This document shows positions 7,454-46,110 of a DNA stretch of 46,231 nucleotides, one piece after another. How positions within the stretch are numbered: position 1 is the stretch's first letter; the number at the start of each line of letters is the position of its first letter. A model generated the notes under the pieces. The model made no database searches. It was not told the DNA's origin and saw nothing but the letters and a program-made list of their open reading frames with translations. The stretch covers positions 1 to 46,231 of the forward strand of contig JAGVZM010000011.1 in assembly GCA_018302545.1 (NCBI GenBank). Reading direction: 5' to 3'. This DNA comes from Candidatus Woesearchaeota archaeon (lineage in GTDB: Archaea; Nanobdellota; Nanobdellia; SCGC-AAA011-G17; GW2011-AR18). Position numbers and translations under genes: made by a program.

Positions 7454-8098
7454 ATGAGTGAACAAAAAATACAAAAAACAGGAACTACAACTTTAGGTTT
7501 AGTTTGTAAAGATGGAATTGTATTGGCTGCAGATAAAAAAGTTACATTAGGTGGAATGTTAGTTTCAAATAAAAAATTTGATAAAGTTCTTATCTTAAAT
7601 GAAGATTTAGCTATCACAATTGCAGGTTCTGTTTCTGATATACAATTAATTGTTAAATTGATCAGAGCACAAATTAAGATTGATGAGTTAAGAAGAGGTA
7701 AGAAGATAAAAGTTAAAGAAGCTGCTAATTTATTAGCAAATTTGGTTTATAATAATTCAAGAAAGTTTAGTGCTATACCTGGGGTTACTGGTTTCTTATT
7801 AGGTGGAAGAGATGAAGAAGGAGTTTATTTATATGAGTTGGGTATGGATGGAAGTTTAATGAAATCAGAAGATTATACTTGTGATGGTTCTGGAATGATG
7901 TATGCAATAGGAGTATTGGAAGCAAATTATCAAGAAAAGATGAGTATAGAAGAAGGTATAAAAGTTGCTGTAAAGGCAATAAGTGCTTCTACTCAAAGAG
8001 ATACTGCAAGCGGTTGTGGTGTTGATGTAGTTACTATCACAAAGGATGGAACTAAAAAAGTTTTAACTAAATTAATAGATACAAAGTTAACAATTTAA
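7454..8098 (+). CDS. psmB: Proteasome beta subunit
   Basis: This is the catalytic subunit of the archaeal 20S proteasome, an N-terminal nucleophile threonine protease. A short propeptide ends in a Gly and is followed by TTTLGLVCKDG, so Thr1 is exposed after self-cleavage. The mature chain has Asp17 in LAADKKVT and a Lys at about 34 (family Lys33, one residue offset), plus the SGCGVDVVTI end typical of the family. The ATG at 7454 gives a 10-residue propeptide; a GTG at 7445 would add three residues. It sits just upstream of aCPSF1, the termination nuclease, and may be cotranscribed with it. Confidence 0.95.
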   Translation: MSEQKIQKTGTTTLGLVCKDGIVLAADKKVTLGGMLVSNKKFDKVLILNEDLAITIAGSVSDIQLIVKLIRAQIKIDELRRGKKIKVKEAANLLANLVYNNSRKFSAIPGVTGFLLGGRDEEGVYLYELGMDGSLMKSEDYTCDGSGMMYAIGVLEANYQEKMSIEEGIKVAVKAISASTQRDTASGCGVDVVTITKDGTKKVLTKLIDTKLTI

Positions 8099-8122
8099 TT
8101 ATATATTCTAAACATATAGAAA

Positions 8123-10027
8123 ATGGTAAAAATATTAGATGAAGTAATGAAAGCATTGCCTGGAGATGCAGATATAGCAGATGCTGTTTTTGAAGGAGCA
8201 AATATAGTCTTGTATACTAAGAATAAAGAATTCTTTTTAGATAATAAAGGGGCTATAAAACAAATAGTGGATGATATTAAAAAAAGAGTTGAATTAAGAG
8301 CTGATCCTTCTATGTTATTAGATATGGAAGAAACTAAAAAGATAGTTGAGGAAACTATGCCTGATGAGGTTGAAAAACCAAATGTGATATTTGATCCTCA
8401 AAGAAGTAGGGTTATTATAGAATCTAATAAACCTGGTTTAGCTATAGGTAAAGGAGGAGATTTATTAAAAGAAATAAAGAAAAAGACTTTATGGACTCCT
8501 ATTGTTAGAAGAATACCTCCTATGAGGTCACAATTAATAGAGAATATTAGACAAGTTTTATATGACTTTAGTGATTATAGAAAGAAATTTTTACATAAGA
8601 TAGGTAAGAGAATCTATGAAGGTTGGACTAAGGAAAAAAGAGATGAATGGGTTAGAATAACTTGTTTAGGAAGTGCTAGAGAAGTAGGAAGAAGCTGTTT
8701 TTTAATTCAAACTCCGGAAAGTAAAGTGCTTTTAGATTGTGGATTTAATGTTGCGGCTCCAAGAGAATATGCTTTTCCTTATTTAGATGCACCAGAGTTT
8801 AATATTCAAGAATTGGATGCAGTTATACTTTGTCATAGTCATATTGATCATGTTGGGGCTTTACCATTTTTATATAAGATGGGTTTTAGAGGAGCTACAT
8901 ATTGTACAGCTCCTTGTAGGGATATAAGTGCCCTAATGTGTTTAGATCTAGTAGAAATCGCTGCAAAAGAGGGGAATGAATCTTTATACTCTATGAATGA
9001 TGTTAAGGAATTTGTTAAACATACTGTTTGTTTAGACTATGGAGAAGTATCAGATATAACTCCTGATATTAGATTAACACTTTATAATGCAGGACATACT
9101 TTAGGAAGTGCATTAGCTCATTTACATATAGGCAATGGTTTACATAACTTCGTCTATACTTCAGATTTTAATTATGAGACAAGTAATTTGCTAGGAAGTG
9201 CTAATACTAAATTTCCTAGAGCTGAAAGCGTTATGATGGAAAGCACTTATGGTACTAAAAGTGATACTAGTCCTACAAGAAAGGAAAGTGAAGATGAATT
9301 AATTAGGATAATTGAAGAGGTTGTTAAAAGAAAAGGTAAAATTTTAATGCCAGTTTTAGGGGTAGGTAGAAGTCAAGAGATAATGTTAATAATTGAGAGA
9401 ATAATGAGAGAAGGAAAAATTCCTGAGATGCCTGTTTATGTTCAAGGCATGGTATGGGATGTTACTGCCATTCATACTGCTTATCCAGATTATTTAAGCC
9501 CTAGAGTTAAGAAAGATATATTCCAAAGAGATCATAATCCATTTTTAAGCCCCATATTTAAAAAAGTTGTTAGTCAAAAAGAAATGCAAGAAGTTAAGGA
9601 TGCTAAAGGGCCATATATAGTAATGGCAACTTCTGGAATGCTCCAGGGTGGACCAGCTTTAGAATATTTCAAACATTTTGCTGAAAATCCAAAGAATGCA
9701 TTAATATTAACTTGTTATCAAGGTGTTGGAAGTTATGGTAGAAGAATACAAGATGGAGAAAAAGAGATGACTTTTATGGCTGGCGGAAGTAAGAAAACTG
9801 AAGCTGTTAAAGTTTTAATGGAAGTTTATACTATTTCTGGATTTTCTGGACATAGTAATTTTAAACAGTTGGTTAGTTGGGTTGGTAATTTAGAACCTAG
9901 GCCTAGAAAAGTTATTACTGTTCATGGAGACTATTCTAGATGTATAGAATTAGCTAGTGTTATATACCAGAAATATAGGATAGAGACTGTTGCTCCTAAG
10001 AATTTAGAGACTATTAGATTAAGATAG
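8123..10027 (+). CDS. fttA: aCPSF1/FttA, KH-domain beta-CASP transcription termination ribonuclease
   Basis: This 634-residue protein has N-terminal KH domains (about residues 1-145, with IGKGG at 108-112), then a metallo-beta-lactamase/beta-CASP nuclease core. The zinc ligands HSHIDH are at 238-243, with later GHTLGSA, a TSDF stretch, ATSGML, and a final HGD motif. In archaea this enzyme cleaves nascent RNA at U-rich sites and ends transcription. The length and domain order match the family fully. Its last codons overlap the end of a convergent gene by 9 nt. Confidence 0.95.
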   Translation: MVKILDEVMKALPGDADIADAVFEGANIVLYTKNKEFFLDNKGAIKQIVDDIKKRVELRADPSMLLDMEETKKIVEETMPDEVEKPNVIFDPQRSRVIIESNKPGLAIGKGGDLLKEIKKKTLWTPIVRRIPPMRSQLIENIRQVLYDFSDYRKKFLHKIGKRIYEGWTKEKRDEWVRITCLGSAREVGRSCFLIQTPESKVLLDCGFNVAAPREYAFPYLDAPEFNIQELDAVILCHSHIDHVGALPFLYKMGFRGATYCTAPCRDISALMCLDLVEIAAKEGNESLYSMNDVKEFVKHTVCLDYGEVSDITPDIRLTLYNAGHTLGSALAHLHIGNGLHNFVYTSDFNYETSNLLGSANTKFPRAESVMMESTYGTKSDTSPTRKESEDELIRIIEEVVKRKGKILMPVLGVGRSQEIMLIIERIMREGKIPEMPVYVQGMVWDVTAIHTAYPDYLSPRVKKDIFQRDHNPFLSPIFKKVVSQKEMQEVKDAKGPYIVMATSGMLQGGPALEYFKHFAENPKNALILTCYQGVGSYGRRIQDGEKEMTFMAGGSKKTEAVKVLMEVYTISGFSGHSNFKQLVSWVGNLEPRPRKVITVHGDYSRCIELASVIYQKYRIETVAPKNLETIRLR

Positions 10028-15869: not shown

Positions 15870-16172
15870 ATGCCTTTTACACCTTTTCATTTAGGAATTA
15901 GTGGATTAATCTCAGTTATATTTAGAAAATTAGACTGGTTGTTAATTCTTGTGGGAAGTGTTATTTTAGATTTTTGGCCTTTTTTAGTTGTTGTTTTTTC
16001 ATTGCCTTATAATTTACATGATTTTTCTCATTCTTTTTTAATTGCAATTATAGTTTCTATTATTTTAGCAATTGTTAGATTTAATTTAAATTTTCTAGAT
16101 AAAAAGTCTTTTAAAAATTTATTTTTTAGTTCAATTATTGGAATATTTTTATTAAATTATTTAGAACTTTAG
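15870..16172 (+). CDS. YdjM-like membrane hydrolase, C-terminally truncated
   Basis: The start MPFTPFHLGISGLISVI and the LHDFSHSFLIAI segment are diagnostic of a family of archaeal membrane proteins related to YdjM-type metal-dependent hydrolases. Full members continue with a further His/Asp motif helix (GxxxHxxLDSxxY). Here the frame ends just where that should start, and its last 38 bases overlap the 3' end of the MazF-like toxin gene coming from the other strand. The gene was probably cut when the toxin-antitoxin module landed. It may be non-functional. Confidence 0.6.
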   Translation: MPFTPFHLGISGLISVIFRKLDWLLILVGSVILDFWPFLVVVFSLPYNLHDFSHSFLIAIIVSIILAIVRFNLNFLDKKSFKNLFFSSIIGIFLLNYLEL

Positions 16173-16482
16173 AGAAGGTTGTTTCTTTTATTTTCCCAAT
16201 ATTTTTAAGTAATAAACCCTTATTTATTTTTGCAATATTTTCTATTTTTATGGCACATTTATTATATAATTCTCCATTTTCTAAATCGTTATTTGTAATA
16301 TTTAGCTTATATCTTCCTTCTATTGTATTAGATGTTAAAGAGCAAACTAGAACATCTTCAGATCTTAAATTAAAATCATTTTTTGATAATATTAATACAG
16401 GTCTTACTTTGCTACCTTTTAAATTGGAGAATGGAAAGGGCACTAAAAATAAATCCCTTTGATTTATAGATACTTGCTCCAT
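16135..16482 (-). CDS. MazF/PemK-family toxin endoribonuclease
   Basis: This 115-residue protein has the family start RDLFLVPFPFSNLKGSKVRPVLILS with the conserved Arg-Pro, then VLVCSLTSN and a final small helix. Members cut mRNA at short sites. It overlaps the upstream AbrB-type antitoxin by 19 nt, the usual order for these pairs (antitoxin first). Its tail overlaps the end of the truncated YdjM-like gene. Confidence 0.88.
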   Translation of the reverse strand: MEQVSINQRDLFLVPFPFSNLKGSKVRPVLILSKNDFNLRSEDVLVCSLTSNTIEGRYKLNITNNDLENGELYNKCAIKIENIAKINKGLLLKNIGKIKETTFSKVLNNLIKIFQ

Positions 16483-16733
16483 ATCTTATCCTCCTCTTCA
16501 TTATCCCAATCTTTTGTTAAACTTTGTTCAGCTAATATTAGCCAACCTAATTTTTCTTTTTCTTGTTCACTTTCTTCTAAATTTTTTACAAAGTCTTCTT
16601 CTTTTTCAAGTATTAACTTTCCTTCTTTCTCTATAAGGACTAAATTTGTTCCTTCATGAATATCAAGATGTTTTCTAATTTTTTCAGGTATTACAATTTG
16701 TCCCCTTGAAGATACTTTTATTGTCTCGATCAT
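16464..16733 (-). CDS. AbrB/MazE-family antitoxin
   Basis: This 89-residue protein starts IKVSSRGQIVIPEKIRKHL, the swapped-hairpin DNA-binding motif of the SpoVT/AbrB/MazE family. An acidic C-terminal tail would bind and block the toxin. It precedes the MazF-like gene and overlaps it. An inverted repeat in front of it (16745-16758) is a candidate self-binding site. Confidence 0.88.
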   Translation of the reverse strand: MIETIKVSSRGQIVIPEKIRKHLDIHEGTNLVLIEKEGKLILEKEEDFVKNLEESEQEKEKLGWLILAEQSLTKDWDNEEEDKIWSKYL

Positions 16734-23998: not shown

Positions 23999-24571
23999 AT
24001 GGATAACACACTAAAAATTATAGATTACTTGGGAAAACACGTTGGAGAAATTTATACCATGCATGAATTAAGTAGATTATTGAATATTCCTTATGCTTCT
24101 TTTTACCGAACAATCCAACAAATGGAAGACATCTTAATTATAAAAAACATTGGAAAGTCAAAAACAATAGCCCTTAATTTCCAAAATCCTATAATCAAAT
24201 CACATTTAATTATTGCTTCTGATGAAAGAAAAAAAGAATTCTTAAAGAAACACCTCATTATTAAAAAAATAAATGAAGAATTGGATACTCAAGAGATTGT
24301 TCTTATTTTTGGAAGTTATGCGAAAGGAAAAGAAACCGAGAAGAGCGATATAGATTTTTTATTAATAAATAAAGATGGAAAAAAGACTTTATCTTTCTCA
24401 AAATACGAATTTTTATTCAAAAAGAAAATCAATCCAATCTTTATTAGTATTAAAGAATTCAAAGAAATGCTAAAAACAGAGGAAGAAAATGTGGGAAGAC
24501 AAGCATTAAAAGAACATATACTTCTTAGTAATCCGGAACAATTTTGGGAGTGTGTCCTAAATGCCTTTTGA
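23999..24571 (+). CDS. MNT-type nucleotidyltransferase with N-terminal winged helix
   Basis: Residues 1-65 look like a winged helix (EIYTMHELSRLLNIPYASFYRTIQQM). Residues 95-160 form a minimal nucleotidyltransferase domain with GSYAKGKETEKSDIDF (GS at 105-106, Asp117 and Asp119). Such proteins are the antitoxin side of MNT/HEPN pairs; some inactivate the HEPN toxin by AMPylation. The gene overlaps the HEPN gene by 11 nt, consistent with a single module. Confidence 0.85.
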   Translation: MDNTLKIIDYLGKHVGEIYTMHELSRLLNIPYASFYRTIQQMEDILIIKNIGKSKTIALNFQNPIIKSHLIIASDERKKEFLKKHLIIKKINEELDTQEIVLIFGSYAKGKETEKSDIDFLLINKDGKKTLSFSKYEFLFKKKINPIFISIKEFKEMLKTEEENVGRQALKEHILLSNPEQFWECVLNAF

Positions 24572-25082
24572 CAAGAAAACCTATGAGCAATTATTTAGAG
24601 AATGTATAACAGATAAAAGAATAAAGAAATCTCAAGAATTATTTAAGATCAAATTGTTCTTGCAGAAAGGAGAAAACAGTTTGCTCATAGCTAAAAGCAT
24701 GAAAGAAAAGAAACCAAGTAAATATGAATCAGCTAAAATTTATTTGGATTATTGGGCGATTACAATTTCTTATTATTCAATGCTCTATGCTGCAAAAGCA
24801 GCAATTCTTTCAAAAGGCTATGAAGTTTCTGACCACGATGCCGCACAAATCGCACTAGGGCATTTGTTAGTTCCAGATGGATTAGAAAAAGAAGATTTGG
24901 AGATTCTTAATCAGGCTCATAAAATATTTGAGGAGGAATATATCCATTATTTTGAAGATGCAAAAAAGGAAAGCCACATTGTAAGATACTCAGCAATTAA
25001 AAGTTATACTAAAAGAAGATTAGATGAAATTTTTGAGAATGCGAGAAAATTTGTGGCAAAAATTACATTAATGTTACAATAA
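24561..25082 (+). CDS. HEPN-domain protein, partner of the MNT protein
   Basis: This 173-residue all-helical protein has the family's central helices (LDYWAITISYYSMLYAAKAAILSKGYEVSDHDAAQIALGHLL). HEPN toxins are RNases that use an R-x4-6-H motif. I see no Arg at the usual place, only SDHDAAQIALGH, so catalysis may be altered or carried by other residues. It overlaps the MNT gene and ends near the eL18 gene, which points the other way. Confidence 0.75.
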   Translation: MPFDKKTYEQLFRECITDKRIKKSQELFKIKLFLQKGENSLLIAKSMKEKKPSKYESAKIYLDYWAITISYYSMLYAAKAAILSKGYEVSDHDAAQIALGHLLVPDGLEKEDLEILNQAHKIFEEEYIHYFEDAKKESHIVRYSAIKSYTKRRLDEIFENARKFVAKITLMLQ

Positions 25083-32934: not shown

Positions 32935-34761
32935 ATGCAAAATACGGGAAATTATCAACCACAGGCATTTAATGTGCCGCAATTACCAAAAGAGGCTCAA
33001 GAAAAGCTAGATGCTATGAAGTCTAAATTAGATAAATTTACTAAAGCAGTTACTAAAGAAAGTAAAGATATTATGGGTATATGTTTATTACCTCCTACTA
33101 AAATTCATCCTGAAGATAATTTACCAGAAAGTGAAGTTGAAAAATTAAAAAAAAGAATTAATGTTCTTATTATTATAGATGTTGAAACTAAAAAAGAATG
33201 GGCAAAATTAAGGGATAATGTTATTCAAAAATCAGTTAAAAAAGCTAATGAGATTGATGAAAATCTTTTTGTTACAGTAATGGATATTGCTGAAATAAGA
33301 GAGAATTGTTTTGATGCTAAATATGAAGTTTTAGAGATGATTGCTAGTGGAGCAAGTTTATATGATCCTAAAGATTTTTTAGCTGCAACAAAAATTTCTG
33401 AAGTTCATAAAAATATGGTTCTTAAGAAGTTTGATAAGTATATAGTTAGTTATATTGCAGTTGGTAGTTTATTTAGGGGAGATGCTAAGAGTAATGATAT
33501 TGACGTTTCTATTGTTATAGATGATACTGATGTTAAGAAGATGACTAGGGCTGAATTAAAAGATAAGCTTTCAGCTATAATTAGAGGTATGGGTTATGAT
33601 GCTTCTCAATTAACTGGAGTTAAGAAAGCATTCCACATTCAAACTTATATTTTAACAGATTTCTGGGATGCAATTAAAGATGCAAATCCAGTAATTTATA
33701 CTTTCTTAAGAGATGGTGTTCCAATTTATGATAGAGGCGTATTCATGCCTTGGAAATTACTACTTAAAATGGGAAGGATAAAACCAAGCCCTGAAGCCAT
33801 AGACTTACAGATGGATGTTGGTGAAAGATTAATACAAAGAACTAAAGGAAAAATGATTGGTATAATGGGAGATGATTTGTATTATGCAATTTTAAATCCT
33901 GCACAAGCAGCTTTGATGTTGTATGGAATAGCACCTCCTACTCCAAAAGAGACAATACAACTAATGGAAGATGTATTTGTTAAGAAAGAGAAGTTATTAG
34001 AGAAGAAATATGTTGATATTTTAAGTAAAATTAGAAAATATTACAAAGATATAGAACATGGTACAATTAAAGAAGTCAAAGGAAAAGATATAGATGAATT
34101 ATTAGGAGATGCTGAAGATTACATTAAAAGAATTAAAAAATTATTTGATGAAATACAAGATAGAAGAGATAAAGATAGTATAGACGAAATGTATACTAAT
34201 TGTATGGATGTTGTTGCTGATGCTTTAAAAGTTAATGAAATTGAAGTTAAAGAAAAATCTAAATTGGTTAGTACTTTCAAGAAAGAGTTAGTTGATGATA
34301 AGAAAGTATTTCCAAAACAATATATTGATACTTTGAAGCTAGTTATTGATACTAAGAATGGTGCTAAAACTAAGAAATTAACTTGGCCAGAATTAGAAAA
34401 GATTAGAAGAGAAGTTAGAGGATTTATTAAAGGAGTTATTGAGTATGTTCAGAGAAAGAGAGGTTATGAATTAGAGAGAGCTAAAGTTAAGTTTAAGTAT
34501 GGAGAAAAATATGGAGAAGCAATTTTACTAGATAAAATTGTTTATGTAATAAATGATGTTGATGCTCAAGACAAAGAAGTAAATAAGGCTACTCTTAATA
34601 AAGATGGTGGCTTTGGAACACTTGCAAAATCTAGTTTAGAAGAATTTGAAAAAGATATTATGAAGATAACTGTTCCAAATAAGGTTTTCATTAAAGAAAA
34701 AACTTTTGAAAGCTTGAAAGGGTTATTTGGAAATGATATAGAGATATTGGTGAATTACTGA
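32935..34761 (+). CDS. Large nucleotidyltransferase-domain protein
   Basis: This 608-residue protein has a central nucleotidyltransferase core at about 170-200: SYIAVGSLFRGDAKSNDIDVSIVID, with Gly-Ser and Asp188/Asp190 (pol beta-type). Its C-terminal half (about 270-500) is helical, with segments like LKMGRIKPSPEAIDLQMDVGERL and coiled-coil-like Lys/Glu-rich stretches that may form a HEPN-like or substrate-binding module. It is a conserved-looking DPANN-type protein. It is followed 30 nt later by an unrelated acidic protein. Substrate (RNA, protein or nucleotide) is unknown. Confidence 0.7.
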   Translation: MQNTGNYQPQAFNVPQLPKEAQEKLDAMKSKLDKFTKAVTKESKDIMGICLLPPTKIHPEDNLPESEVEKLKKRINVLIIIDVETKKEWAKLRDNVIQKSVKKANEIDENLFVTVMDIAEIRENCFDAKYEVLEMIASGASLYDPKDFLAATKISEVHKNMVLKKFDKYIVSYIAVGSLFRGDAKSNDIDVSIVIDDTDVKKMTRAELKDKLSAIIRGMGYDASQLTGVKKAFHIQTYILTDFWDAIKDANPVIYTFLRDGVPIYDRGVFMPWKLLLKMGRIKPSPEAIDLQMDVGERLIQRTKGKMIGIMGDDLYYAILNPAQAALMLYGIAPPTPKETIQLMEDVFVKKEKLLEKKYVDILSKIRKYYKDIEHGTIKEVKGKDIDELLGDAEDYIKRIKKLFDEIQDRRDKDSIDEMYTNCMDVVADALKVNEIEVKEKSKLVSTFKKELVDDKKVFPKQYIDTLKLVIDTKNGAKTKKLTWPELEKIRREVRGFIKGVIEYVQRKRGYELERAKVKFKYGEKYGEAILLDKIVYVINDVDAQDKEVNKATLNKDGGFGTLAKSSLEEFEKDIMKITVPNKVFIKEKTFESLKGLFGNDIEILVNY

Positions 34762-36303: not shown

Positions 36304-37521
36304 TTATTCTTTTTGTTTTATTCCTAATTTGTAAACTTTTAAACCATCTTTCGGTTTATCAATTTCTTCAATTGTTAGAATATCTCCTGATTTCAATGAA
36401 GGATGTGCTGCAAACCAAGGCCTCATTCCTGCAGTGGCATATTCTCCTCCTAATGGATCTCCATGATTAGGATTTCCTCTTCCACCAGTCATATGGGTTC
36501 TTATAGGACCTAAATCAGTTTCAAAGTAAAAGGGTATCTTATAACCTGGAAGTTTTGTTCTATCAGATTTTGGTACAGCTATTAAATTAAATTTCTTCCA
36601 CCTTGGTTCTTTGCTAGAGGCAGAATCTCTAAGTTCAATTTCTAAATATCTTTTTTGTATCTCTGTTGGTTCTCTATGAGATTCTACTTCTCTTTCTAAT
36701 TCTGATTTTCTTATTTCTGATACAGGCTTTGTATATACTGGTTTCTTAAAGTGACTTGTTATATCTACAACATTAAAGTTAACATACATATCTTCTAACA
36801 TTCCTTCTGTTCCTTCTAATATCTTACTTCTTATTAGTTCTGGGACCTCATCTAATGAAGTTGTTTTGTATTCTGATTTTAGTTTGCTTGATTTTACTTG
36901 TATTACAGCAAATTCTTCACCATAAGTGGCTTCTTCTACATCCTCTACAATTCCACTTACAATAATATGTACTGTTTCATACATTGCCTCCATAGGTGTT
37001 GATGCATCTGTATGCTTTTTATCTGGATGGACAGCTACAATCACTTGATAAGTATCTCCACCATTATTTTCATATTGTTTTATTACACAACCTGTTTCAA
37101 CTATCTTTGTTAATCCGTTAAATTCTCTTAAATTTTGTTTAGCTTTTCTTCCCGTATCTTCTATTCTTTCTCTTATTGTGTCTGGTATTCCTGCTTTTTC
37201 AGCATCTGATTTTGATTCATAATTTCTCTCAAACCATCTAGCTTCCTTTGCAGATTCTAAGAATTTAGTTTGCCTCTTAGGGGGAAGATTATCTATATCA
37301 TTATATCTCTTTTCTAATAAATTTCTCCATACTGTTAGATGTGTTAATAAAACTCCTCTTTCTTCTTCTATTCTTTGATTTTCTAATCTATCTAATTCCT
37401 CAGCAGCTTTTCTCATTGCATCTAAAGATGATGCTTGTTGTTCTGTAATTGTAGTTCTAACTAGTTCTAGATTATCTTCTAAAGTTAATTTATTATCATA
37501 TAGTTTAGAGATTTGTGTCAT
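36304..37521 (-). CDS. Coiled-coil protein with C-terminal beta domain, last gene of the helicase/ATPase island
   Basis: This 405-residue protein has a long helical N-terminus (residues 5-60 and 100-135), a middle domain with VIKQYENNGGDTYQVIVAVHP, and a distinct C-terminal domain (about 320-400). The latter contains IPFYFETDLGPIRTH, GDPLGGEYATAGMRPWF and HPSLKSGDILTIEEI. The SGDxLxIEEI plus Tyr end resembles the EcoRII-N/B3-like DNA-binding fold, which is only a tentative call. It is 61 bp behind the previous gene with its own promoter, whose AT-rich palindrome is shared with the first gene of the island. Confidence 0.6.
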   Translation of the reverse strand: MTQISKLYDNKLTLEDNLELVRTTITEQQASSLDAMRKAAEELDRLENQRIEEERGVLLTHLTVWRNLLEKRYNDIDNLPPKRQTKFLESAKEARWFERNYESKSDAEKAGIPDTIRERIEDTGRKAKQNLREFNGLTKIVETGCVIKQYENNGGDTYQVIVAVHPDKKHTDASTPMEAMYETVHIIVSGIVEDVEEATYGEEFAVIQVKSSKLKSEYKTTSLDEVPELIRSKILEGTEGMLEDMYVNFNVVDITSHFKKPVYTKPVSEIRKSELEREVESHREPTEIQKRYLEIELRDSASSKEPRWKKFNLIAVPKSDRTKLPGYKIPFYFETDLGPIRTHMTGGRGNPNHGDPLGGEYATAGMRPWFAAHPSLKSGDILTIEEIDKPKDGLKVYKLGIKQKE

Positions 37522-37556
37522 AAAGAAGAAAATCAGTTCTTATAGTTAATTTTTTT

Positions 37557-37573
37557 ACATATATCATATATGT
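37557..37573 (-). promoter_or_regulatory. AT-rich palindrome in the promoter of the 37521 gene
   Basis: The sequence acatatatcatatatgt has 8-bp perfect arms around one base, 36-52 nt before the ATG. The minus strand here reads ATATATGATATATGTAAAA. The same pattern stands before the first gene of the island at 45257-45272. It probably combines a TATA box and an operator. Confidence 0.5.
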
Positions 37574-37581
37574 TATATATA

Positions 37582-38430
37582 TTAGCTCAACAAATATTCT
37601 TCAGCTGCCTTTTTTAATAATTCTACAGTTCTAGGATCTAAATTATTATTTGCTAATGTTGATCTTATTTCTTCTAATCTCTCTTTTGTTTCAGGATTTG
37701 CCTTTTCTAATAAATATAATTCAAAATCTGAATGTTTATCTTTTGCATCTGTATACCAATTAATATAATGCTTCATTAAGAACCTTGTTCCTAGACCTTT
37801 TTCTAAAGTTATCGGACTATATGTTCTAAAAAATTCTCCTAATGTTGTTGAGTTTTCTCTATTATGTTCATAATGTCTAATATATGCTTGCAAACCATCT
37901 TCAATTGAATAATCTCTTGGAGCATTTTCTCCCCTTTCTATTAATGTTCCTATTAACCTTCTTGATAATATTGTTGGTAGAAAACTTGATACAAATTCTA
38001 AGAAAGTTGTTCCTTCATCTTGAGCTTTTTCTAAATAAATAGTTATATACTTTTGTAATGATCTTGACGATTCATTTATTCTCCTTGTTCTTGGATTAAA
38101 TCTTTCAAAAAAACCTATAAAAGATATTGATGATCCGTTCCTTTTTCTATAATGTTTTATATATTCACTTGCAATTTGGGGAAAGGCTCTGTATAAGTGT
38201 GCCCTATCATAAAAGTCTTTTACTCTGTTTTTTTGTGGTTCTCCTAAATCTTTTGTCTCTTCTTGAACTAATCTTATGTTTCTATTTGATGATAATCCTC
38301 CTCTGAAATAATCTGGATTTTTTTCAAATAATTTTAATAGCATTCTTTGTTCTATTTCTGATAAATATTCTAGCTCTGCTAAAAGTTCTTTTGGTACTTC
38401 TTTAATTAAATCTTCAAGCTGCATTTTCAT
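37582..38430 (-). CDS. Helical protein of unknown function
   Basis: The ATG at 38430 (MKMQLEDLI) overlaps the end of the helicase gene by 17 nt and is preferred over a start at 38448. The protein, about 282 residues, is nearly all helix. It shows repeated patterns such as ERFNPRTRRINE with LEKAQDEGTTFLEFVSSFLP, and later ASEYIKHYRKRN and AYIRHYEHNRENSTTLGEFFRTYSP with MKHYINWYTDAK, which suggest an internal about 70-residue repeat (YIxHYxxxxxx-S-xxFFxxF). No catalytic residues are visible. It is probably a structural or DNA-binding partner of the helicase. Confidence 0.6.
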   Translation of the reverse strand: MKMQLEDLIKEVPKELLAELEYLSEIEQRMLLKLFEKNPDYFRGGLSSNRNIRLVQEETKDLGEPQKNRVKDFYDRAHLYRAFPQIASEYIKHYRKRNGSSISFIGFFERFNPRTRRINESSRSLQKYITIYLEKAQDEGTTFLEFVSSFLPTILSRRLIGTLIERGENAPRDYSIEDGLQAYIRHYEHNRENSTTLGEFFRTYSPITLEKGLGTRFLMKHYINWYTDAKDKHSDFELYLLEKANPETKERLEEIRSTLANNNLDPRTVELLKKAAEEYLLS

Positions 38431-40987
38431 AATAACCTTCGATAACACTATCTACTGAGTATAATATTCCTGATTCTTCTTTCGCGAATTCTGTACATAA
38501 CTCTCTTTTGGGAATTGATTTCTTGGCAGCTATTCTTTTTCCTTTTAATTTTCCAGCAAATTTAGTTTCTTTCTTATAGTAAATTGATAAGGCATTTGGA
38601 TTATTTTGATAATCTATAATATCTTCTTTTTTTCTTAATACTGCAACATATGCTCCTCTAAATCTTGCTTTTTTTGGATCTTTTTGATAACTAGAATTAC
38701 CATTCAATTCTTCACATTTAGTTACAGTATAGTTTCCAGACATTAATGTATTTTCAAACCCATATTCTTCCAAGGCTCCTACAAATTTATCAAAACTTGA
38801 TTTTGTTGCATGATTGGGAATTGTTACAATCCAATATCCTCCAACATCTAAGATTCTATTTGTTTCTAATACTGCATCTTCCACTTCTCTTTCTAATATT
38901 TTTGCACCATCTGATTTTCTTTCTCCTTGTGATTGATATTGTAATGCATAAGAACAGACAGCTATTTTTTGGCTTTTAGATGGTAATGCTGTATCTTGTA
39001 TTCTTCTTTTTAAAGTTTCAATTGGAATTCCTAATTTTTTACATTCTTCAATTCCTAAAGCTAACATTGTTTCAGAAATATCTATAGCAATTGTTTTTCT
39101 CTTGGTTTTTCTTCCTAAATATGCTGCACCTGAACCTTGATCTACTATTTGTTCTATAGTTCCTTCATGTCTTTCTATTCCTGATATTATTTGATCAAGT
39201 AATCTTATTGTATGAGCAGAGGCTGTATATTCCCAATTAGTATTATATAATCTTACAAATAAATCCCAAATTTCCTTTTTCTGTAATTTCTCTAAATAAT
39301 CTATACCTCTTCCATTCCATGATCTAGCAATTCTTATTGCTGTTTGGAATGGTGTATCTGTGGGTAATAGATTTACTAAATTTGTATAAATTGCTAGGTT
39401 TACTGCTTCCTCATTTCCATCTTCTAGAGAATCTACTATTCTTTCTAGTTCTGTTAAAGATTCTCCACGTAATGCTTTTTCACCTATTAACTTTTTTATA
39501 TCAGCTTTTTGATAACGATTTTTATCTAAAGTGCCTCCTGTAAACTTTTCTGGCTCTGGAACAGCTATATCATATTCTTTAGCTAATTCTGGAAGCATAT
39601 CTCTCATTCTTCTTTCTAATTCTGGAGAATGACAAACCATATCTACAATTTCTACAGTTCCTCTTTGTCCTATCCTATCTGTTCTTCCTATTTTTTGTAT
39701 TCTTCCACCAGGAGTTATAGATGGATCTAGGCTTATTTGAATAACATCGATTGGATTTGTTTTTGGGTCTGTTGTTAGAGGAATTCCTTCAGAACCTGTT
39801 CCTTCTGTTACTATGGCTACCCTTACATTTCCATATCTGAATCTTTCAGCTCTTGCTTTTGTGTCTTTTGTGTCCCCATCTATTCTTACAGCCCCATACC
39901 TCGAGAATCTTCCTTTTGAGAATTCTTCTTCTAAATGTCTTGTTACCCCTTGTTTTAATTCTGTGAATATAACAACTTGTTTTCCTGTAGAAACTGCTTG
40001 ATAAGTTAGATCTTTTACTCTTTGCATCTTTTGTTTTATTAATATTCTTCTTAATTCCCAGTCTCTTGTTAATGTTGAGGAAGGATCGTCTTCTTGGCAA
40101 GCCCATGTTTTAATATATTTATCAATTGATCTTTCATCTAAAGATACTAACTCTACTCTTTCAACAACATTAGGCAAGGGGAATATTTGCGCTAATTCAT
40201 CTCTTGTTAATCTAAATAGATAATTTCCTAGTATCCTTCTTACTGCATCAATATCTTTTTCATAATCAAACATCTTCGGATGTCTAACTACATTCGGTTC
40301 TAGGATATGTAAAAGTGTTCCAATATCATCAAGGTGATTATATATAGGAGTGGCAGTCATAACTATCTTATATGCATCTGTAGTTAACTCGTTGAATAAT
40401 TTACTTAATGTCTTGGCTCTATTTGCAGAAAAATTTTTAGCTCTATGTGCTTCATCTGCTGTAACAACATCAAAGTGCCTGCCTTTTCTAGATTCTAATT
40501 CTTTAATTGCCCTATAGTATATATTCTCTTCAGGATCTTTTGTTTGAGAAAATTTGTCATCTGCAATTACTACAAAATCATGAGATTTATCTAATTCCCC
40601 TAATCTTGAAGGTGAATCTAGAATTAATACTTCCTGGTCTGGTTTGCCTAAGAGACGCGCTGATTCATTAATTTTTTCTGGTGTCCAAGCCATATCTGTT
40701 ACTCTTTTTGGGGCAACTATCAAACACCTTGATTTTCTTCCTTGGTCTCTTTCAATTAAATTATCTAATAATAATTTTATAACTAATGGAATTGATGATT
40801 TACCTGCTCCTGTGTGATCTCCAACTAAAATTTTTCTTTTTTCTAAGGCAGATCTTATTCTAAAATATTGGTGCAAAGCAGGATACATTCCTGTTTCAGT
40901 TACAGCAGCGAATCTAGCCCAATCTTCTATAATAGACTCTAGATCATCTAAAGCTTCATGTTTAATATCTTGTATTGCTAAGCTCAT
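38414..40987 (-). CDS. SNF2-type helicase fused to a SAM-dependent methyltransferase
   Basis: This 857-residue protein has both ATPase halves. Walker A GDHTGAGKSS is at 56-65, DEAH at 178-181, TAT in TATPIYNHLDD at 211-213, and motif VI QKIGRTDRIGQRG at 431-443 with its two Arg fingers. This is the SNF2/strawberry-notch-like superfamily 2 set. Residues 610-730 form a separate methyltransferase: motif I VDQGSGAA (615-622), motif II AIDIS (634-638), motif IV CSYALQY (678-684) and a GGYWIVTIPN strand. It lacks an N/DPPY catalytic motif, so DNA-amino methylation is not evident. It is the largest gene of the island, transcribed 2 nt after 40990-41598. Confidence 0.9.
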   Translation of the reverse strand: MSLAIQDIKHEALDDLESIIEDWARFAAVTETGMYPALHQYFRIRSALEKRKILVGDHTGAGKSSIPLVIKLLLDNLIERDQGRKSRCLIVAPKRVTDMAWTPEKINESARLLGKPDQEVLILDSPSRLGELDKSHDFVVIADDKFSQTKDPEENIYYRAIKELESRKGRHFDVVTADEAHRAKNFSANRAKTLSKLFNELTTDAYKIVMTATPIYNHLDDIGTLLHILEPNVVRHPKMFDYEKDIDAVRRILGNYLFRLTRDELAQIFPLPNVVERVELVSLDERSIDKYIKTWACQEDDPSSTLTRDWELRRILIKQKMQRVKDLTYQAVSTGKQVVIFTELKQGVTRHLEEEFSKGRFSRYGAVRIDGDTKDTKARAERFRYGNVRVAIVTEGTGSEGIPLTTDPKTNPIDVIQISLDPSITPGGRIQKIGRTDRIGQRGTVEIVDMVCHSPELERRMRDMLPELAKEYDIAVPEPEKFTGGTLDKNRYQKADIKKLIGEKALRGESLTELERIVDSLEDGNEEAVNLAIYTNLVNLLPTDTPFQTAIRIARSWNGRGIDYLEKLQKKEIWDLFVRLYNTNWEYTASAHTIRLLDQIISGIERHEGTIEQIVDQGSGAAYLGRKTKRKTIAIDISETMLALGIEECKKLGIPIETLKRRIQDTALPSKSQKIAVCSYALQYQSQGERKSDGAKILEREVEDAVLETNRILDVGGYWIVTIPNHATKSSFDKFVGALEEYGFENTLMSGNYTVTKCEELNGNSSYQKDPKKARFRGAYVAVLRKKEDIIDYQNNPNALSIYYKKETKFAGKLKGKRIAAKKSIPKRELCTEFAKEESGILYSVDSVIEGYYENAA

Positions 40988-40989
40988 TT

Positions 40990-41598
40990 CTAATAACCAA
41001 CCTTCTCCCTTTCTGAATAAATAATACTCCTAGCTTCTTGAGGAGTTCTTGCTAATTGCAATCTTCTCATATACGATTTTATAACTCGGTCTAGGATAAT
41101 TGCTTTAATAGCATCTCCGTCTGATCTTAATTTATTTGCTTCGTCATTTAGATGTGTTGCAACAAGTGCTCTAGCTTCAGGATCTAAAAGTTCATCATAA
41201 TTTTCTATTCCAGATCCTGTTGGCATTGAAACTATTCCTAAGTTCAATCTTGGAATCAATCTTGGAAGAGAATTTTCTATATATCCCTCAGGTATATCGG
41301 GAATGTAACCATGAAGTAATTTTGCTTTTTCTGTATGGGTTATTCCTAAAGCTAAAGTTTTTTCAGCAATTTCTCTTAAATTTCCTTCTGTTAATCTTTG
41401 TTCTAAACTGTCTATATCTACTTCTGTTATTAAAGAAGGATCTTGTGATTTTAATTTCATTAACACTTCATCAGGAAGATGTTGCATTAAGTATAATTCT
41501 ATAGAAATTTTTGCCTTTTTTGCTGATGATTTTAAAACTAAGTAAAGGTTAGGATACTCCTTTCTTATATATTCTGTAAGTTTCTTTCTATCTTCCAT
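40990..41598 (-). CDS. Helical protein of unknown function
   Basis: This 202-residue, mostly helical protein lies between the GHKL ATPase gene (16 nt upstream) and the helicase gene (2 nt downstream). The N-terminus resembles a charged helix-turn-helix-like bundle (EYIRKEYPNLYLVLKSSAKKAK). The middle has GYIPDIPEGYIENSLPRLIPRL. No family is recognised. Tight packing argues for a role as an adaptor in the same complex. Confidence 0.6.
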   Translation of the reverse strand: MEDRKKLTEYIRKEYPNLYLVLKSSAKKAKISIELYLMQHLPDEVLMKLKSQDPSLITEVDIDSLEQRLTEGNLREIAEKTLALGITHTEKAKLLHGYIPDIPEGYIENSLPRLIPRLNLGIVSMPTGSGIENYDELLDPEARALVATHLNDEANKLRSDGDAIKAIILDRVIKSYMRRLQLARTPQEARSIIYSEREKVGY

Positions 41599-41614
41599 GA
41601 TAATCTATATATTT

Positions 41615-43252
41615 TCACTTTTTCTTTCTAGCAGTTGAAAATTGCCCAAATGTTGATACTAGCTCTGTTGCTCTTGCTCCAATATTTTCTATATAACTTT
41701 CACTTGTTTCTCCTCTTTTTCTTGTCCAGTTTTCCATGTCTAAATGTGAGATTGCTAATGCGAATTGCATTCCCCAATATCTAAATGCTCGATCTGGATC
41801 TTCAGATTTTAGAACTTCAATTTTATATCTTTGATGAGTTGTATTAAACCATGCTGTTCCTGTATCTACATCTATTTTGTAACTTAGATGTGATTCATCT
41901 GGAGGAAAACTATCTACGACAAAAGAGTAATTTAGATTTTTTCCAACTATAGGGTCACCTGTGTTTTTGTCTCCATTCTCTCCTCCACAAATAGGCGGCT
42001 TTTTTCCCCCACCATTTCCTCCACTTCCAGGTTTTGGATTAGATGTAGGTCTTGGGCCCCTTGGAGTATATCCTGTAGGAGGCACAAATGGGCATGACTT
42101 ATATGCCATTCTTATTGCTTCTAATGAGTCTCTATAGATTCTTGTTTCTTGAGATGTGGAATTTGATTTATGGATAGATAATACTTCTTCCAGTTTTGCT
42201 GAAGTCTCTTTTTCTATTGGTGTTGTTACTCTTTCTCTTAAAGTTGACAATCTTCTTCCTTTAGCATCTACAATTCCGTCTCTAGTTGGTGTTAATTCTA
42301 AAAAATTTACATTAATATATCCTGTTAAATGTGGAGAATTCCAAGGTTTTATACCTAATTTTTCTAGATCAGTTAAATTACAAACTTCTACATCTTGATT
42401 GTGTAATCTAACTTTAGGATTATTTGATGTTGGATCTATAAATAAATAGATTTCGTATTCTGCATTTATTCCATTAGGATTTAATTCTGTTGGTGGATAG
42501 TGTACTCCTAAACTTTCTAAATTTTTATTTACTGATTCTATAACTACACATCCCATATAATCTGGAAGTTCTACTGGTGCTAAAGTTGTATGTCCTAAAC
42601 CATTAGATAAAGTTCCGACTAATATTCTTGTTTTAATTCCATCTCTTCTTATTCTTGGTTCAAATATCCTTCCTATCTCTCTTCTTATATTTGAGGGAGA
42701 TAAACTTGATTTTAGAGTTCCGGGTTCTATTCCTGATATTATGACTCTTGTTCCATAATCAAAACTAGGCCCAGGTATACTATTTGGATCTAGATCTATT
42801 CCATATCTTGGTTCTTCTCCAGAACACATTTGTAAAGCATTGTATGTTCTCTCTTCAATATTTCTAGAAGCGACAATTAATCTATCCCCAAAAGTTCTAA
42901 ATGCTTGCATTCCAAATGCTTTATTTCCAATTAGGTGTTTTAATCCTGGTAACTGTCTTTTTTTAGAAGAACCTATGTTTCTTGTTAATCCTATTAGAGA
43001 TTCTTGAGTTATTCCCCTTCCATTATCTGTTATTATTATATTTCCTTTTTGTGTATCCAATAATATTTGTATCTCTAATTTTTCTTGACTATATTCTGTT
43101 GCTGCATCTAATGAATTTGCAACATATTCTTTTAATGCTTTTATTTTTGAAGGAAATGCTCCAACTTGATCTATTACAAATCCTTCATCACCTATAGACC
43201 ATGACCCTTTTCTAGATAGTCTTGATGCTAATTCTTCAATTGAAGCTGTCAT
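41615..43252 (-). CDS. GHKL/Bergerat-fold ATPase (MutL/HSP90/TopoVIB-like)
   Basis: This 545-residue protein has the N-box at about 42-50 (EYVANSLDA), G1 DNGRGI at 76-81, and the lid/G2 IGNKAFGMQAFRTFGD at 108-123, so all ATP-binding motifs are present. A transducer-like domain follows (FDYGTRVIISGIEPGTL, then ...RREIGRIFEPRIRR). After a Gly/Pro linker (about 390-440) comes a C-terminal domain with YKIDVDTGTAWFN and FRYWGMQFALAISHL. There is no histidine-kinase or MutL endonuclease motif. ATP-driven closing on DNA is the expected behaviour. It is the third gene of the island. Confidence 0.88.
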   Translation of the reverse strand: MTASIEELASRLSRKGSWSIGDEGFVIDQVGAFPSKIKALKEYVANSLDAATEYSQEKLEIQILLDTQKGNIIITDNGRGITQESLIGLTRNIGSSKKRQLPGLKHLIGNKAFGMQAFRTFGDRLIVASRNIEERTYNALQMCSGEEPRYGIDLDPNSIPGPSFDYGTRVIISGIEPGTLKSSLSPSNIRREIGRIFEPRIRRDGIKTRILVGTLSNGLGHTTLAPVELPDYMGCVVIESVNKNLESLGVHYPPTELNPNGINAEYEIYLFIDPTSNNPKVRLHNQDVEVCNLTDLEKLGIKPWNSPHLTGYINVNFLELTPTRDGIVDAKGRRLSTLRERVTTPIEKETSAKLEEVLSIHKSNSTSQETRIYRDSLEAIRMAYKSCPFVPPTGYTPRGPRPTSNPKPGSGGNGGGKKPPICGGENGDKNTGDPIVGKNLNYSFVVDSFPPDESHLSYKIDVDTGTAWFNTTHQRYKIEVLKSEDPDRAFRYWGMQFALAISHLDMENWTRKRGETSESYIENIGARATELVSTFGQFSTARKKK

Positions 43253-43253
43253 T

Positions 43254-44183
43254 TTATTTTCTTACTCCTTGAGGCAAATAACCATCTCTATTGAATTCCA
43301 TCCAACTTTCCAAATTCTCTCTACCTTTCCCTAATGCAAGAATTAAACCTGCTCCATAACCTGAATCTTGTGGGGCTATTAAATCTGATAATGTTCTCAT
43401 TGTCTCCGGATCTCTTCTTATACTAACTGATAAATCTAAGAAGGCATAGAAAAAAAGGGCTGTTAATTGGGCTCTTTTTTCTAAAGGTATTACTTCTGGA
43501 TCTAGTAAAACTTTAGATAGAACCTCTGGAGCATATCTCTCTGGAACTATTGAACCAATAGCATCTAGCCCTTCTAAATAAACATTTCTTAGTCTTTGTA
43601 AACCTAAATTTGTTTGATCAATATTACTTAATTTGCTCTCTCCGTTTAGTTTAGTAGGTTTTTCTTTAGTAATTTCTGTATAACTCTCTCTAGGATCTAT
43701 GAAACAATCCAATTCTGTTAAATCTAATAACGAGATTCTTCTCTCTATAGGATACGAACTTAATTGATATAAAATTGAATTTAAACTTCCTTGTGGAATC
43801 TTTGTTTTTTTAGCTATTAATTTGGGAGTTCTCAGATCTTTATCTTCAGCCATCCATGCTCTTAATTTTTTTTGCCAACCTTCAGCACCATAAGGTATTT
43901 TGTCTTTTAATATTCCTGCTATTTCAATTCTTGTTGCTTCTAGTTCTGGAGAAAAACATTCTAAACCAGATGCTGAAAATAATATTCTTCTTACTTCTCC
44001 TTCTGGAAATGAACCTCCCTCTCTTAAATATCTTCTATATCCCTCTCTATTTAATCCATATCCTTTAGCTACTTCTCTATAATTTCTATCACCATTCCAT
44101 TCATTTAAATTCTCTTTCCAAGTTCTGATTTTTTTCACTGTTCCTTGTGGTGCATTTATTAGGCATCTTTCCATTTTTGTCAT
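43254..44183 (-). CDS. HTH-like protein of unknown function
   Basis: This 309-residue protein has two candidate helix-turn-helix repeats near the N-terminus (YREVAKGYGLNREGYRRYLREG and, after about 80 residues, TPKLIAKKTKIPQGSLNSILYQL). They may recognise DNA or act as an internal duplication. The C-terminal part is helical. Its ATG overlaps the stop of the first gene (ATGA), so the two are translated together. Confidence 0.65.
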   Translation of the reverse strand: MTKMERCLINAPQGTVKKIRTWKENLNEWNGDRNYREVAKGYGLNREGYRRYLREGGSFPEGEVRRILFSASGLECFSPELEATRIEIAGILKDKIPYGAEGWQKKLRAWMAEDKDLRTPKLIAKKTKIPQGSLNSILYQLSSYPIERRISLLDLTELDCFIDPRESYTEITKEKPTKLNGESKLSNIDQTNLGLQRLRNVYLEGLDAIGSIVPERYAPEVLSKVLLDPEVIPLEKRAQLTALFFYAFLDLSVSIRRDPETMRTLSDLIAPQDSGYGAGLILALGKGRENLESWMEFNRDGYLPQGVRK

Positions 44184-45217
44184 TGAATAATTTCTCCTTG
44201 TCTAATATCACTAAAACCAATAAATTTACATCTTGGTTTAAAACTTTCAGCGTAAGCATTAGCAAATCTATACAATCTTTCTCCTGTAACTAATAATCTT
44301 GCATTTTTCAATTCTCTTTCTGAGAGATCTAATACTTTAGGATCTATAGAATCAGGTGAGACACACAATTGTCCTTTGTAATGATGACTGTACATTGTCT
44401 TTGGACTTATACCAAGAATGCCTGCTACTTCTTTTACAGTCATAATAGTTTTTGGATTTATTTCTGGCAATCCTATCTCTTCAGATAAAAGCTGGGCCTT
44501 TCTTTCTAAATATGAAGTTGAATCATAAACTCTTAGATCTAGATTTAACCTTCTTAATTCTCTAGATTTTGATATTTCCTCTAATGTAGAGTATACTACT
44601 GCTGGTTTCTCTTCTAAAACTAAATAAACTATATCATCTTCTGATTCTTCTTTTAATTTTCCTACTTGTTTTAATCTATCTTTTATTAAATTATAAACCC
44701 TATTTGTTAAGTTGTTTTCTCCATCCAAATTATGAGTAGTATATATAGGTAGGCCTACACACAAATGGCCTGCTTTTTCGTGTATCACTAAATTTATTTC
44801 TTCAGTTTTTCTTAATGAATCATCTTCTAAAGAATCAAGTTTTTGTTTGTGTTCATCATGTAGTTTTTGATGAGTTAATCTAACTAATTCTGGATCTTTA
44901 TCATCTAAATTTGTTAAGTAATCTTCTTCATACCATCTAACTAACTCTACTGAAGTAAAATAAGAGTCTACATCAGACAATTTGGCAATTTTGTCTGCTC
45001 TTGCTTTTAGTCTTGAAGCTGAATTTTTTAAAGCTTCTTGTATTATCTCCCTTAAATCTTTTATTCTAGAACTATCTACCTCATTTGCTTTTCTCAGATG
45101 TTCTTGTGCTTGATTTAATTCAAGTTCTATAGAAGGCCTATAATGGGCTTCCAATTTAGAAAATATTCCTTCTAAACTCATACTCTGATCAAATCTTATT
45201 CTTGATAGTACTGACAT
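44180..45217 (-). CDS. Regulator-like protein with C-terminal MerR/excisionase-type HTH
   Basis: This 345-residue protein has a helical, coiled-coil-like N-terminal half (about 20-140). Near residues 140-165 lies an HEKAGHLCVGLP stretch. Residues 258-283 (MTVKEVAGILGISPKTMYSHHYKGQL) form a typical excisionase/MerR helix-turn-helix. It is first in the island, preceded by the AT-rich near-palindrome at 45257, and may control its own operon and the 37521 gene. Confidence 0.65.
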   Translation of the reverse strand: MSVLSRIRFDQSMSLEGIFSKLEAHYRPSIELELNQAQEHLRKANEVDSSRIKDLREIIQEALKNSASRLKARADKIAKLSDVDSYFTSVELVRWYEEDYLTNLDDKDPELVRLTHQKLHDEHKQKLDSLEDDSLRKTEEINLVIHEKAGHLCVGLPIYTTHNLDGENNLTNRVYNLIKDRLKQVGKLKEESEDDIVYLVLEEKPAVVYSTLEEISKSRELRRLNLDLRVYDSTSYLERKAQLLSEEIGLPEINPKTIMTVKEVAGILGISPKTMYSHHYKGQLCVSPDSIDPKVLDLSERELKNARLLVTGERLYRFANAYAESFKPRCKFIGFSDIRQGEIIQ

Positions 45218-45256
45218 GTTATATTTTGTTTAGAAAATAGTTTATTTGAATATTTT

Positions 45257-45272
45257 ACATATACCGTATATA
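45257..45272 (-). promoter_or_regulatory. AT-rich near-palindrome in the promoter of the helicase/ATPase island
   Basis: The plus strand reads acatataccgtatata. The minus strand, TATATACGGTATATGTAAAA, matches the promoter at 37557-37573 over about 20 positions and sits at the same distance from its gene (40-55 nt). It is probably a TATA element plus operator. Confidence 0.5.
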
Positions 45273-45390
45273 TTCATGTGACATCCTCTCACAACTTAAA
45301 TGATTATGATTTTCTTGCTTAAGTTTTCATAAACTGAAAATTTTATTTTTTTAGATGGATTTAAAACTTTTTTGTTTTATGGTGTATATA

Positions 45391-45435: not shown

Positions 45436-46110
45436 ATGACAAAAGCAATAATTAGTGATGGTGGAGATATCTTATTTACTAGTAAAGATAAAGAAGTTTT
45501 GTATAGTTTTCTTTCTAAATATATTCCTAATTTAACTTTTGGAGCTTTTAGAACTGGTTTCAAACCTTATAGATCTAAATCAAATGAGGTTAAAGGATAC
45601 AGTGTTGATGATGCAGTTAGAGATTACATTTTTGAAAATGATTTCAATGGAGGTATATTTGATGAATATATGATCTCAAGAGAAAGAATGGATGTTTTGC
45701 AACATAAAAATAGAGTTGTTAGAGAAGGAGTTAAAGAAACTTTAGAAGAATTAAAACATAGGGGAGTATATTTTATTGTTGCTACAGATGCATCTTTACC
45801 TGGACGTATTTTAAGGCCACAATTGGTACCCTTAGGTTTAAGCGGACTTGTTTATGATATTGTTTCTTCTACTGATGTTGGAGCTCAAAAACCAAATCCT
45901 AAATTTTTTAATCGTGTTCTAAGAGCTAATGATTTAAAAAGAGATGAGGTATTTTTTGTTGGACATGATGAAGATGAATTAAGAGGAGCTTATGAACAAG
46001 GATTTGAGGTTGTTGCTTTAAATTATGATCCAAAAGAAGATTTAAGTTTTATTTCTGAGGATCATAAAGTAGAAAAGTTTCCTCAAATTTTAAAATTTGT
46101 TAAGACTTAG
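45436..46110 (+). CDS. HAD-superfamily hydrolase-like protein
   Basis: The ATG at 45436 gives MTKAIISDGGDIL. An upstream in-frame ATG at 45355 would add a 27-residue hydrophobic stretch over the TATA box. The protein, about 224 residues, has motif I as SDGGDIL (nucleophile Asp, but Gly in place of the second Asp), motif II with VATDAS, motif III AQKPNPKFFNRVL (Lys) and motif IV FFVGHDEDELRGA. This is a class I HAD with an altered motif I, so it may be a weak or non-phosphatase member. Confidence 0.8.
   Translation: MTKAIISDGGDILFTSKDKEVLYSFLSKYIPNLTFGAFRTGFKPYRSKSNEVKGYSVDDAVRDYIFENDFNGGIFDEYMISRERMDVLQHKNRVVREGVKETLEELKHRGVYFIVATDASLPGRILRPQLVPLGLSGLVYDIVSSTDVGAQKPNPKFFNRVLRANDLKRDEVFFVGHDEDELRGAYEQGFEVVALNYDPKEDLSFISEDHKVEKFPQILKFVKT

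Follow-up and report, generated by a model that had tools for sequence, protein, structure and literature searches.

The contig JAGVZM010000011.1 of a Candidatus Woesearchaeota archaeon (assembly GCA_018302545.1) carries seven genes, here called A1 to A7, on the minus strand at positions 36304–45217. The window analyzed is this entire contig (C15; 46,231 nucleotides), one of the 30 that make up the 1.16-Mb genome of a tiny, symbiont-like archaeon. Judged from sequence and gene order, the cluster divides most plausibly into two modules: A1-A2-A3, which includes a GHKL ATPase (A3), and A4-A5-A6-A7, which includes an SNF2 helicase-like ATPase fused to a methyltransferase (A5). We tentatively regard it, at a little under even confidence, as a nuclease-free, reader-directed system for DNA conflict or for DNA remodelling and modification in small archaea, a function that we infer. 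This explanation is supported by the patchy spread of both modules, their co-occurrence in three genomes, the DNA-reading folds around the motors, the intact motor motifs, a shared upstream element and the precedent of MORC/paraMORC operons.

Gene content of the two modules

An earlier interpretation of the letters alone (the sequence-only reading) had described seven same-strand genes, and the open reading frames (ORFs) match its positions exactly. As it had stated, A1 to A6 overlap or nearly touch, with junctions from a 35-bp overlap to a 16-bp gap: A1/A2 overlap by 4 bp, A2/A3 are 1 bp apart, A3/A4 16 bp and A4/A5 2 bp, and A5/A6 overlap by 35 bp; A6/A7 are separated by 60 bp. In base composition the cluster is not clearly distinct from the remainder of the window. 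A chance assembly is ruled out by the homologues of A2–A5 and A7 in other genomes and by the recurrence of several gene orders. The proposed single island, however, resolves into two separable modules, which lie side by side only in the window and at a distant locus, L046 (genome G125).

The first module begins with A1 (44180–45217; 345 amino acids), a candidate DNA-reading adaptor or regulator with a coiled-coil N-terminal part (by eye), a small alpha/beta segment and a MerR/Xis-type helix-turn-helix (HTH) at residues ~258–305. The assignment of this HTH stands in part: A1 matches excisionase and MerR families in PHROGs, but its Pfam HTH_17 score of 22 bits falls below the cut-off of 27. An HTH relative of 194 amino acids is encoded at L057 (E 1.9e-5). 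The alpha/beta segment resembles a MerR protein at L019 and a 704-amino-acid protein at L102 above a motif-matched background, a likeness that failed a leave-one-out hidden Markov model (HMM) test. A2 (43254–44183; 309 amino acids) has two HTH units (by eye) and a helical end, and its predicted HTH nature is borne out by its relatives, which are HTH proteins. A2 aligns with a 192-amino-acid partner at L016 (phmmer 8.2e-8) and with a family of seven partners (hhalign probability 96%, E 1.4e-9). This constant partner lies directly upstream of the GHKL gene, and an HTH partner gene also precedes the GHKL gene in L013–L019, L102 and L103.

A3 (41615–43252; 545 amino acids) is a GHKL ATPase, as had been proposed (Pfam HATPase_c_3, 1.6e-11), with the motifs DNGRGI and GNKAFGMQA, a conserved E/N box and a putative Hsp90/SMCHD1-like middle domain. 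Its structural model, of moderate to low confidence (predicted local distance difference test, pLDDT, 59), aligns in Foldseek with the ATPase modules of Hsp90 and SMCHD1 over ~400 columns (E 2e-13 to 1e-10). SMCHD1 is a eukaryotic chromatin-silencing protein. On sequence evidence, the HTH partner and GHKL ATPase (A2-A3) form a genuine divergent family that is not named in curated libraries. L019 reproduces the A1-A2-A3 order, with genes for a MerR protein, an extra protein, the HTH partner and GHKL in succession, and the run at L102 is similar. HTH–GHKL pairs with gyrB and gyrA downstream occur at L014:3843–10529 (directly upstream of gyrBA) and L015:8657–16967 (near gyrBA). A family with YLGLEG...NLDYxG motifs lies near the GHKL module at L019:10737–12125 and L102:5884–7998 and in L013, L014, L015, L016 and L017; it is possibly a degenerate Rossmann methyltransferase, for which the best E value in a PDB profile search was about 1.

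The second module centers on A5 (38414–40987; 857 amino acids). Pfam places SNF2 (4.2e-13) and Methyltransf_25/11 (1.2e-6) domains in this one protein, in agreement with the fusion first described; besides A3 and A5, no protein of the cluster receives a confident Pfam family. Both ATPase and S-adenosylmethionine (SAM) motifs are intact in the cluster proteins, and the A5 motor keeps its Walker A (GAGKS), DEAH and QKIGRTDRIG motifs. The methyltransferase part is closest to UbiE-like enzymes and protein O-methyltransferases, with LahSB as its top PDB match. A DPPY-type motif is absent from all 14 SNF2–methyltransferase family sequences, and no PC motif was found in the last 400 residues of the window A5. 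Thus, the candidate role of A5 as a DNA adenine or cytosine methylase is unsupported. As for the DNA modification suggested by the sequence-only reading, methylation of bases is not indicated: the enzyme is a class I methyltransferase of the UbiE-like kind and carries neither a DPPY nor a PC motif. The SNF2–methyltransferase is, from its sequence, a genuine divergent family that curated libraries do not name.

A4 (40990–41598; 202 amino acids) is a helical partner of A5. A homologue is fused to the N-terminus of the SNF2–methyltransferase at L046 (E 2.1e-12), and the A4 C-terminus resembles three paralogues adjoining the SNF2–methyltransferase at L047 (hhalign score 29.8, reached by 0 of 60 backgrounds). 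Homology of A4 to the upstream genes of every sister locus was rejected, as it holds only for these two. A6 (37582–38448; 288 amino acids) is a helical protein of unknown kind with no detectable relative and no confident match in Pfam, PHROGs or PADLOC/NCBIfam; its proposed homology to the gene after the SNF2–methyltransferase elsewhere was not significant (hhalign probability 1.8%).

A7 (36304–37521; 405 amino acids) has a helical or coiled N-terminus, an alpha/beta middle and a B3-like DNA-binding C-terminal domain (~290–405). Homologues follow the SNF2–methyltransferase at L047 (1.9e-8) and L054 (8.6e-5). The B3-like end noted earlier reappears in a poor model (pLDDT 47 overall, mostly about 40–74 at the C-terminus), whose top three Foldseek matches are the B3 domains 5os9, 4ldv and 4ldy (probability 1.00, 0.91 and 0.44; best E 0.013). 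An alpha/beta domain common to A1, A7 and the first genes of sister loci is tentatively suggested by segments picked by eye: pairwise profile scores reach at least 17 in 9 of 78 pairs, against 0.9% of a motif-matched background, and a leave-one-out HMM failed to recover the domain. The SNF2–methyltransferase locus of genome G002 (L054) also encodes a 438-amino-acid protein with a metal-protease-like HEAMGH motif (7243–8559).

Shared upstream element

Of the seven genes, only A1 and A7 are preceded by a 21-bp near-palindrome, which is on the same (minus) strand at both sites. The first copy, ATATATACGGTATATGTAAAA (45253–45273), is 36 bp upstream of A1 and is a candidate operator or promoter of the cluster; the second, ACATATATGATATATGTAAAA (37553–37573), is 32 bp upstream of A7. 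When aligned with each other, the two upstream regions score better than 99.5% of shuffled sequences. No third site with fewer than three mismatches occurs in the 1.16-Mb genome, a count that shows only that a third site is missing, as the pattern was derived from its own two sites. This shared element ties the A1 and A7 ends into one unit and hints that a single regulator, possibly A1, controls both transcripts.

Distribution and co-occurrence

Both families are rare. Of 103 genomes of the order, 10 contain relatives of A3; the sampled genomes of the same family contain none. With a profile of the C-terminal half of A5, 371 genomes of the phylum yielded 14 SNF2–methyltransferase loci, spread over 13 genomes. 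These loci all score above 158 bits and have ORFs of 785–1148 amino acids; ordinary methyltransferases scored below 65 bits, leaving a clear gap. One genome (G033) has two different loci. In a same-sized draw of 371 genomes, the GHKL profile reached 150 bits or more in eight. The two families occur together in three genomes (that of the window, G002 and G125), whereas ~0.3 would be expected from 8 and 13 of 371. G002 has them on separate contigs, and in most genomes the modules occur apart. Relatives of the second module are found at L046, L047 and L054. A profile scan of the genome contigs with one family alignment returned only two loci, both already known. This patchy distribution rules out a universal housekeeping cluster, the spread that the sequence-only reading had named as its refutation. 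Between G176 and G049, which belong to different families, island proteins are ~50% identical and a core protein 60%, values that give no hint of a very recent transfer between the two genomes.

A viral, phage or plasmid origin was also considered and rejected: nine scans, covering IMG/VR contigs, phage records and plasmids, returned no relative of the same architecture, and similarity in phage records is confined to the helicase core.

Sister loci and swapped DNA readers

At other loci, the SNF2–methyltransferase is accompanied by different partners. For instance, L053 and L090 encode tandem-HTH proteins and an alkyladenine-glycosylase (AAG)-like protein, L056 encodes HNH-repeat proteins, and six loci encode a long protein (coiled-coil by eye) or helical partners, most of them together with a divergent AAG-like protein. 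In most sister loci, the motor is accompanied by recognizable folds that bind DNA or its bases (HTH arrays, HNH repeats, AAG-like or B3). AAG-like genes lie near 9 of the 14 SNF2–methyltransferase loci; the window genome has none. A scan of 236 genomes returned six strong members of the divergent AAG-like clade, five of them at SNF2–methyltransferase loci. The sixth, in L127, stands beside an HTH-array protein with no SNF2–methyltransferase, and this pair adjoins a gene that looks by eye like a transposase.

The second glutamate of the ETEAY motif is the catalytic residue of human AAG. In the island copies this glutamate is replaced and the next aromatic residue mostly kept, so that, by sequence, these proteins look like base-binding, non-cutting readers. 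Copies without the glutamate are encoded at L052:7018–7668, L050:1220–1864, L051:2318–3097, L055:6123–6941, L053:7389–7844, L090:1593–2096, L049:9624–10247, L048:11919–12569, L056:3224–3769 and L127:9350–9853; a canonical ETEAY copy is present at L048:12556–13107. Tandem-HTH proteins with a common C-terminal domain are encoded at L090:2115–3812, L053:5985–7367 and L127:8465–9334, with about 7, 5 and 2 units, respectively (by eye). The number of units clearly varies between genomes, much like a modular DNA-reading array. At L056:4808–8048, four paralogous proteins stand in a row before the SNF2–methyltransferase, some of which match the homing-endonuclease-associated HNH_repeat.

Comparison with known systems

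The closest precedent is the SWI2/SNF2 type of MORC/paraMORC operon. These inferred conflict systems combine SWI2/SNF2 helicases, B3 (VP1/RAV) proteins and methylases (Iyer, Abhiman and Aravind, 2008; PMC2292703). Operons of the SWI2/SNF2 type often, but not always, carry a nuclease (HNH or EcoRII-like, also Vsr or restriction-endonuclease fold); a cytosine or adenine methylase is frequent without being universal, and some have a VP1/RAV (B3) protein (PMC2292703). The cluster likewise forms one predicted operon, which encodes a GHKL ATPase with a possible S5-like domain, an SNF2 helicase, a B3-type protein and a methyltransferase, and its distribution is similarly sporadic. The A3 motifs are the GHKL ATP-binding motifs of the MORC family, its Hsp90/SMCHD1 alignment may take in a C-terminal S5-fold domain (a region of low pLDDT in the model), A5 provides the SNF2 helicase, and the A7 C-terminus corresponds to VP1/RAV in Foldseek, with a low-confidence model. 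The differences are considerable. The MORC motif GhXhhpXXRhl has no match in A3 or in 10 relatives, and Pfam, PADLOC and NCBIfam detect no nuclease domain in A1–A7, as the sequence-only reading had observed for this GHKL and SNF2–methyltransferase set, with A6 lacking an assigned fold. The methyltransferase is fused to the SNF2 protein and is not of the DNA-base type, lacking the [DNS]PP[YFWH] and PC motifs, and the HTH partner, MerR adaptor, A4 and A6 are additional. We do not file the cluster as a MORC/paraMORC member, since searches for the MORC motif, for a nuclease and for a DNA-type methylase all came back empty. It may work like one.

Other systems are more distant. DISARM also combines an SNF2-like helicase (DrmD) with a methyltransferase, but the DrmD models reach 46 and 34 bits where the cut-offs are 950 and 610, and DrmA, DrmB and DrmC have no match. 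Hma comprises a helicase, a 5-methylcytosine methyltransferase (HmaB) and an ATPase (PMC8565338), the same three activities, whereas A5 lacks the PC motif and none of the Hma models gives a match. Dpd resembles the cluster in the SNF2 helicase DpdE (41 bits against a cut-off of 500) and in no other Dpd protein. For MADS (methylation-associated defence), the MAD1 HTH scores 16 bits against 80, mad2 and mad8 give weak domain-level matches, and no MAD1–MAD8 protein exceeds its cut-off. The phage DNA helicase family phrog_62 matches the SNF2 core of A5 (3.4e-36) but leaves the methyltransferase part uncovered. Across PADLOC, NCBIfam and PHROGs, only partial helicase, GHKL and HTH similarities appear, and wherever a curated cut-off exists they score far below it. 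The earlier judgment that the set is no named system thus agrees with the absence of a strong PADLOC, NCBIfam or Pfam system match; its statement that known systems differ holds for DISARM and Hma, but it had not named the close MORC/paraMORC precedent.

Possible functions

In the two-module system that we propose, the readers A1 (MerR-like), A2 (double HTH) and A7 (B3-like) would direct two ATP-driven machines onto particular DNA. A3 would be an Hsp90/SMCHD1/MORC-type GHKL clamp that closes on or reshapes DNA, A5 an SNF2 translocase that moves its methyltransferase along DNA, and A4 the protein that holds A5 to its readers. The target, most likely foreign or mobile DNA, would be marked, remodelled or silenced and not cleaved. 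Among possible purposes, defence or the silencing of mobile DNA ranks first, though we hold this somewhat short of an even chance. Several points weigh against the proposal. No direct link to defence was found, no PADLOC system lies in the cluster, and defence neighbours are limited to toxin-antitoxin-like pairs (by eye). The methyltransferase lacks DNA-methylase motifs, and its substrate may not be DNA. Only three genomes, the index case included, show the co-occurrence, and sequences from all three had gone into the GHKL profile. The models of A7 and A3 have low confidence, and A6 is left unexplained by the searches run.

With less confidence, we consider it possible that the cluster belongs to an undescribed nuclease-free, DNA-targeting class, an archaeal machine for epigenetic silencing or marking in which an SNF2–methyltransferase fusion would be targeted by swappable readers and one branch would have added a GHKL clamp. 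The readers would, on this equally tentative account, be B3, MerR, tandem-HTH arrays, HNH-repeat proteins and the glutamate-less AAG fold. There is a real chance that the reader-swapping SNF2–methyltransferase family merits its own class.

A restriction-modification-like system, a DPANN form of MORC/paraMORC that cuts DNA with a nuclease hidden in A6 (or in A4 or A1), is unlikely. The HNH or EcoRII-like nucleases and B3 proteins frequent in SWI2/SNF2-type MORC operons (PMC2292703) and the unassignable fold of A6 speak for it. Conversely, no nuclease was found in A1–A7 or in the scanned neighbours of sister loci, where the HNH_repeat match denotes a repeat that binds DNA. The methyltransferase, moreover, does not belong to the self-protecting DNA type, and A6 has no relative in sister loci. 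Slightly less probable still is a mobile-element maintenance or propagation module (partition, anti-restriction or replication aid) that is now chromosomal. The patchy spread, the excisionase/MerR-like HTH of A1, the phrog_62 match and the transposase-like gene (by eye) at L127 fit such an origin. However, no integrase, replication or structural genes were recognized in the cluster, its relatives are missing from IMG/VR contigs and plasmids and reach phages in the helicase part only, and its flanks are ordinary chromosome genes. A chromosomal regulatory or nucleoid-remodelling system, whose methyltransferase acts on DNA-bound protein or RNA, is improbable. It would accord with SMCHD1/MORC-like GHKL and SNF2 remodelling logic, with a methyltransferase of the protein or small-molecule kind and with the HTH–GHKL pairs beside gyrBA, but most relatives of the archaeon lack the cluster, which is therefore not housekeeping, and the reader domains diverge and swap fast, as in conflict systems. 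That two unrelated accessory operons are neighbours by chance, without joint function, is very improbable, since the tight A3/A4/A5 junctions, the renewed adjacency in L046, the presence of both in G002 and the common upstream element outweigh the separation of the modules in most genomes.

Neighboring genes

A HAD hydrolase gene adjoins A1 (45436–46110), and its homologue at L102:9881–10564 (1.7e-37) lies ~2 kb from the first module there. Close to the cluster is a nucleotidyltransferase-like gene encoding 608 amino acids (32935–34761); one homologue starts 66 bp past the SNF2–methyltransferase locus of L054, and another is found at L019, ~4 kb away from the GHKL module. This shared neighbor possibly reflects an integration hot spot or chance. 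A pair resembling an MNT nucleotidyltransferase/HEPN toxin-antitoxin (23999–25082) closely resembles a pair beside the L017 GHKL module (E ~1e-71 to 1e-81), and a MazF/PemK-like toxin-antitoxin-like pair (by eye) is located at 16135–16733.

Significance

CRISPR-Cas and restriction-modification are underrepresented in DPANN archaea, according to a 2026 survey (PMC12988326). If our explanation is true, a patchy system with two DNA-driven ATPases, a methyltransferase, variable readers and no detected cutter would be a different way of handling foreign DNA, and it would link prokaryotic conflict systems to the eukaryotic silencing logic of SMCHD1/MORC and SNF2 proteins. With readers that are swapped, among them HTH-repeat arrays and a base-binding fold that has lost its catalytic residue, target recognition is open to direct testing. 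Rare, patchy and without a named defence match, the cluster is a good candidate for an undescribed route of DNA recognition and marking or silencing.

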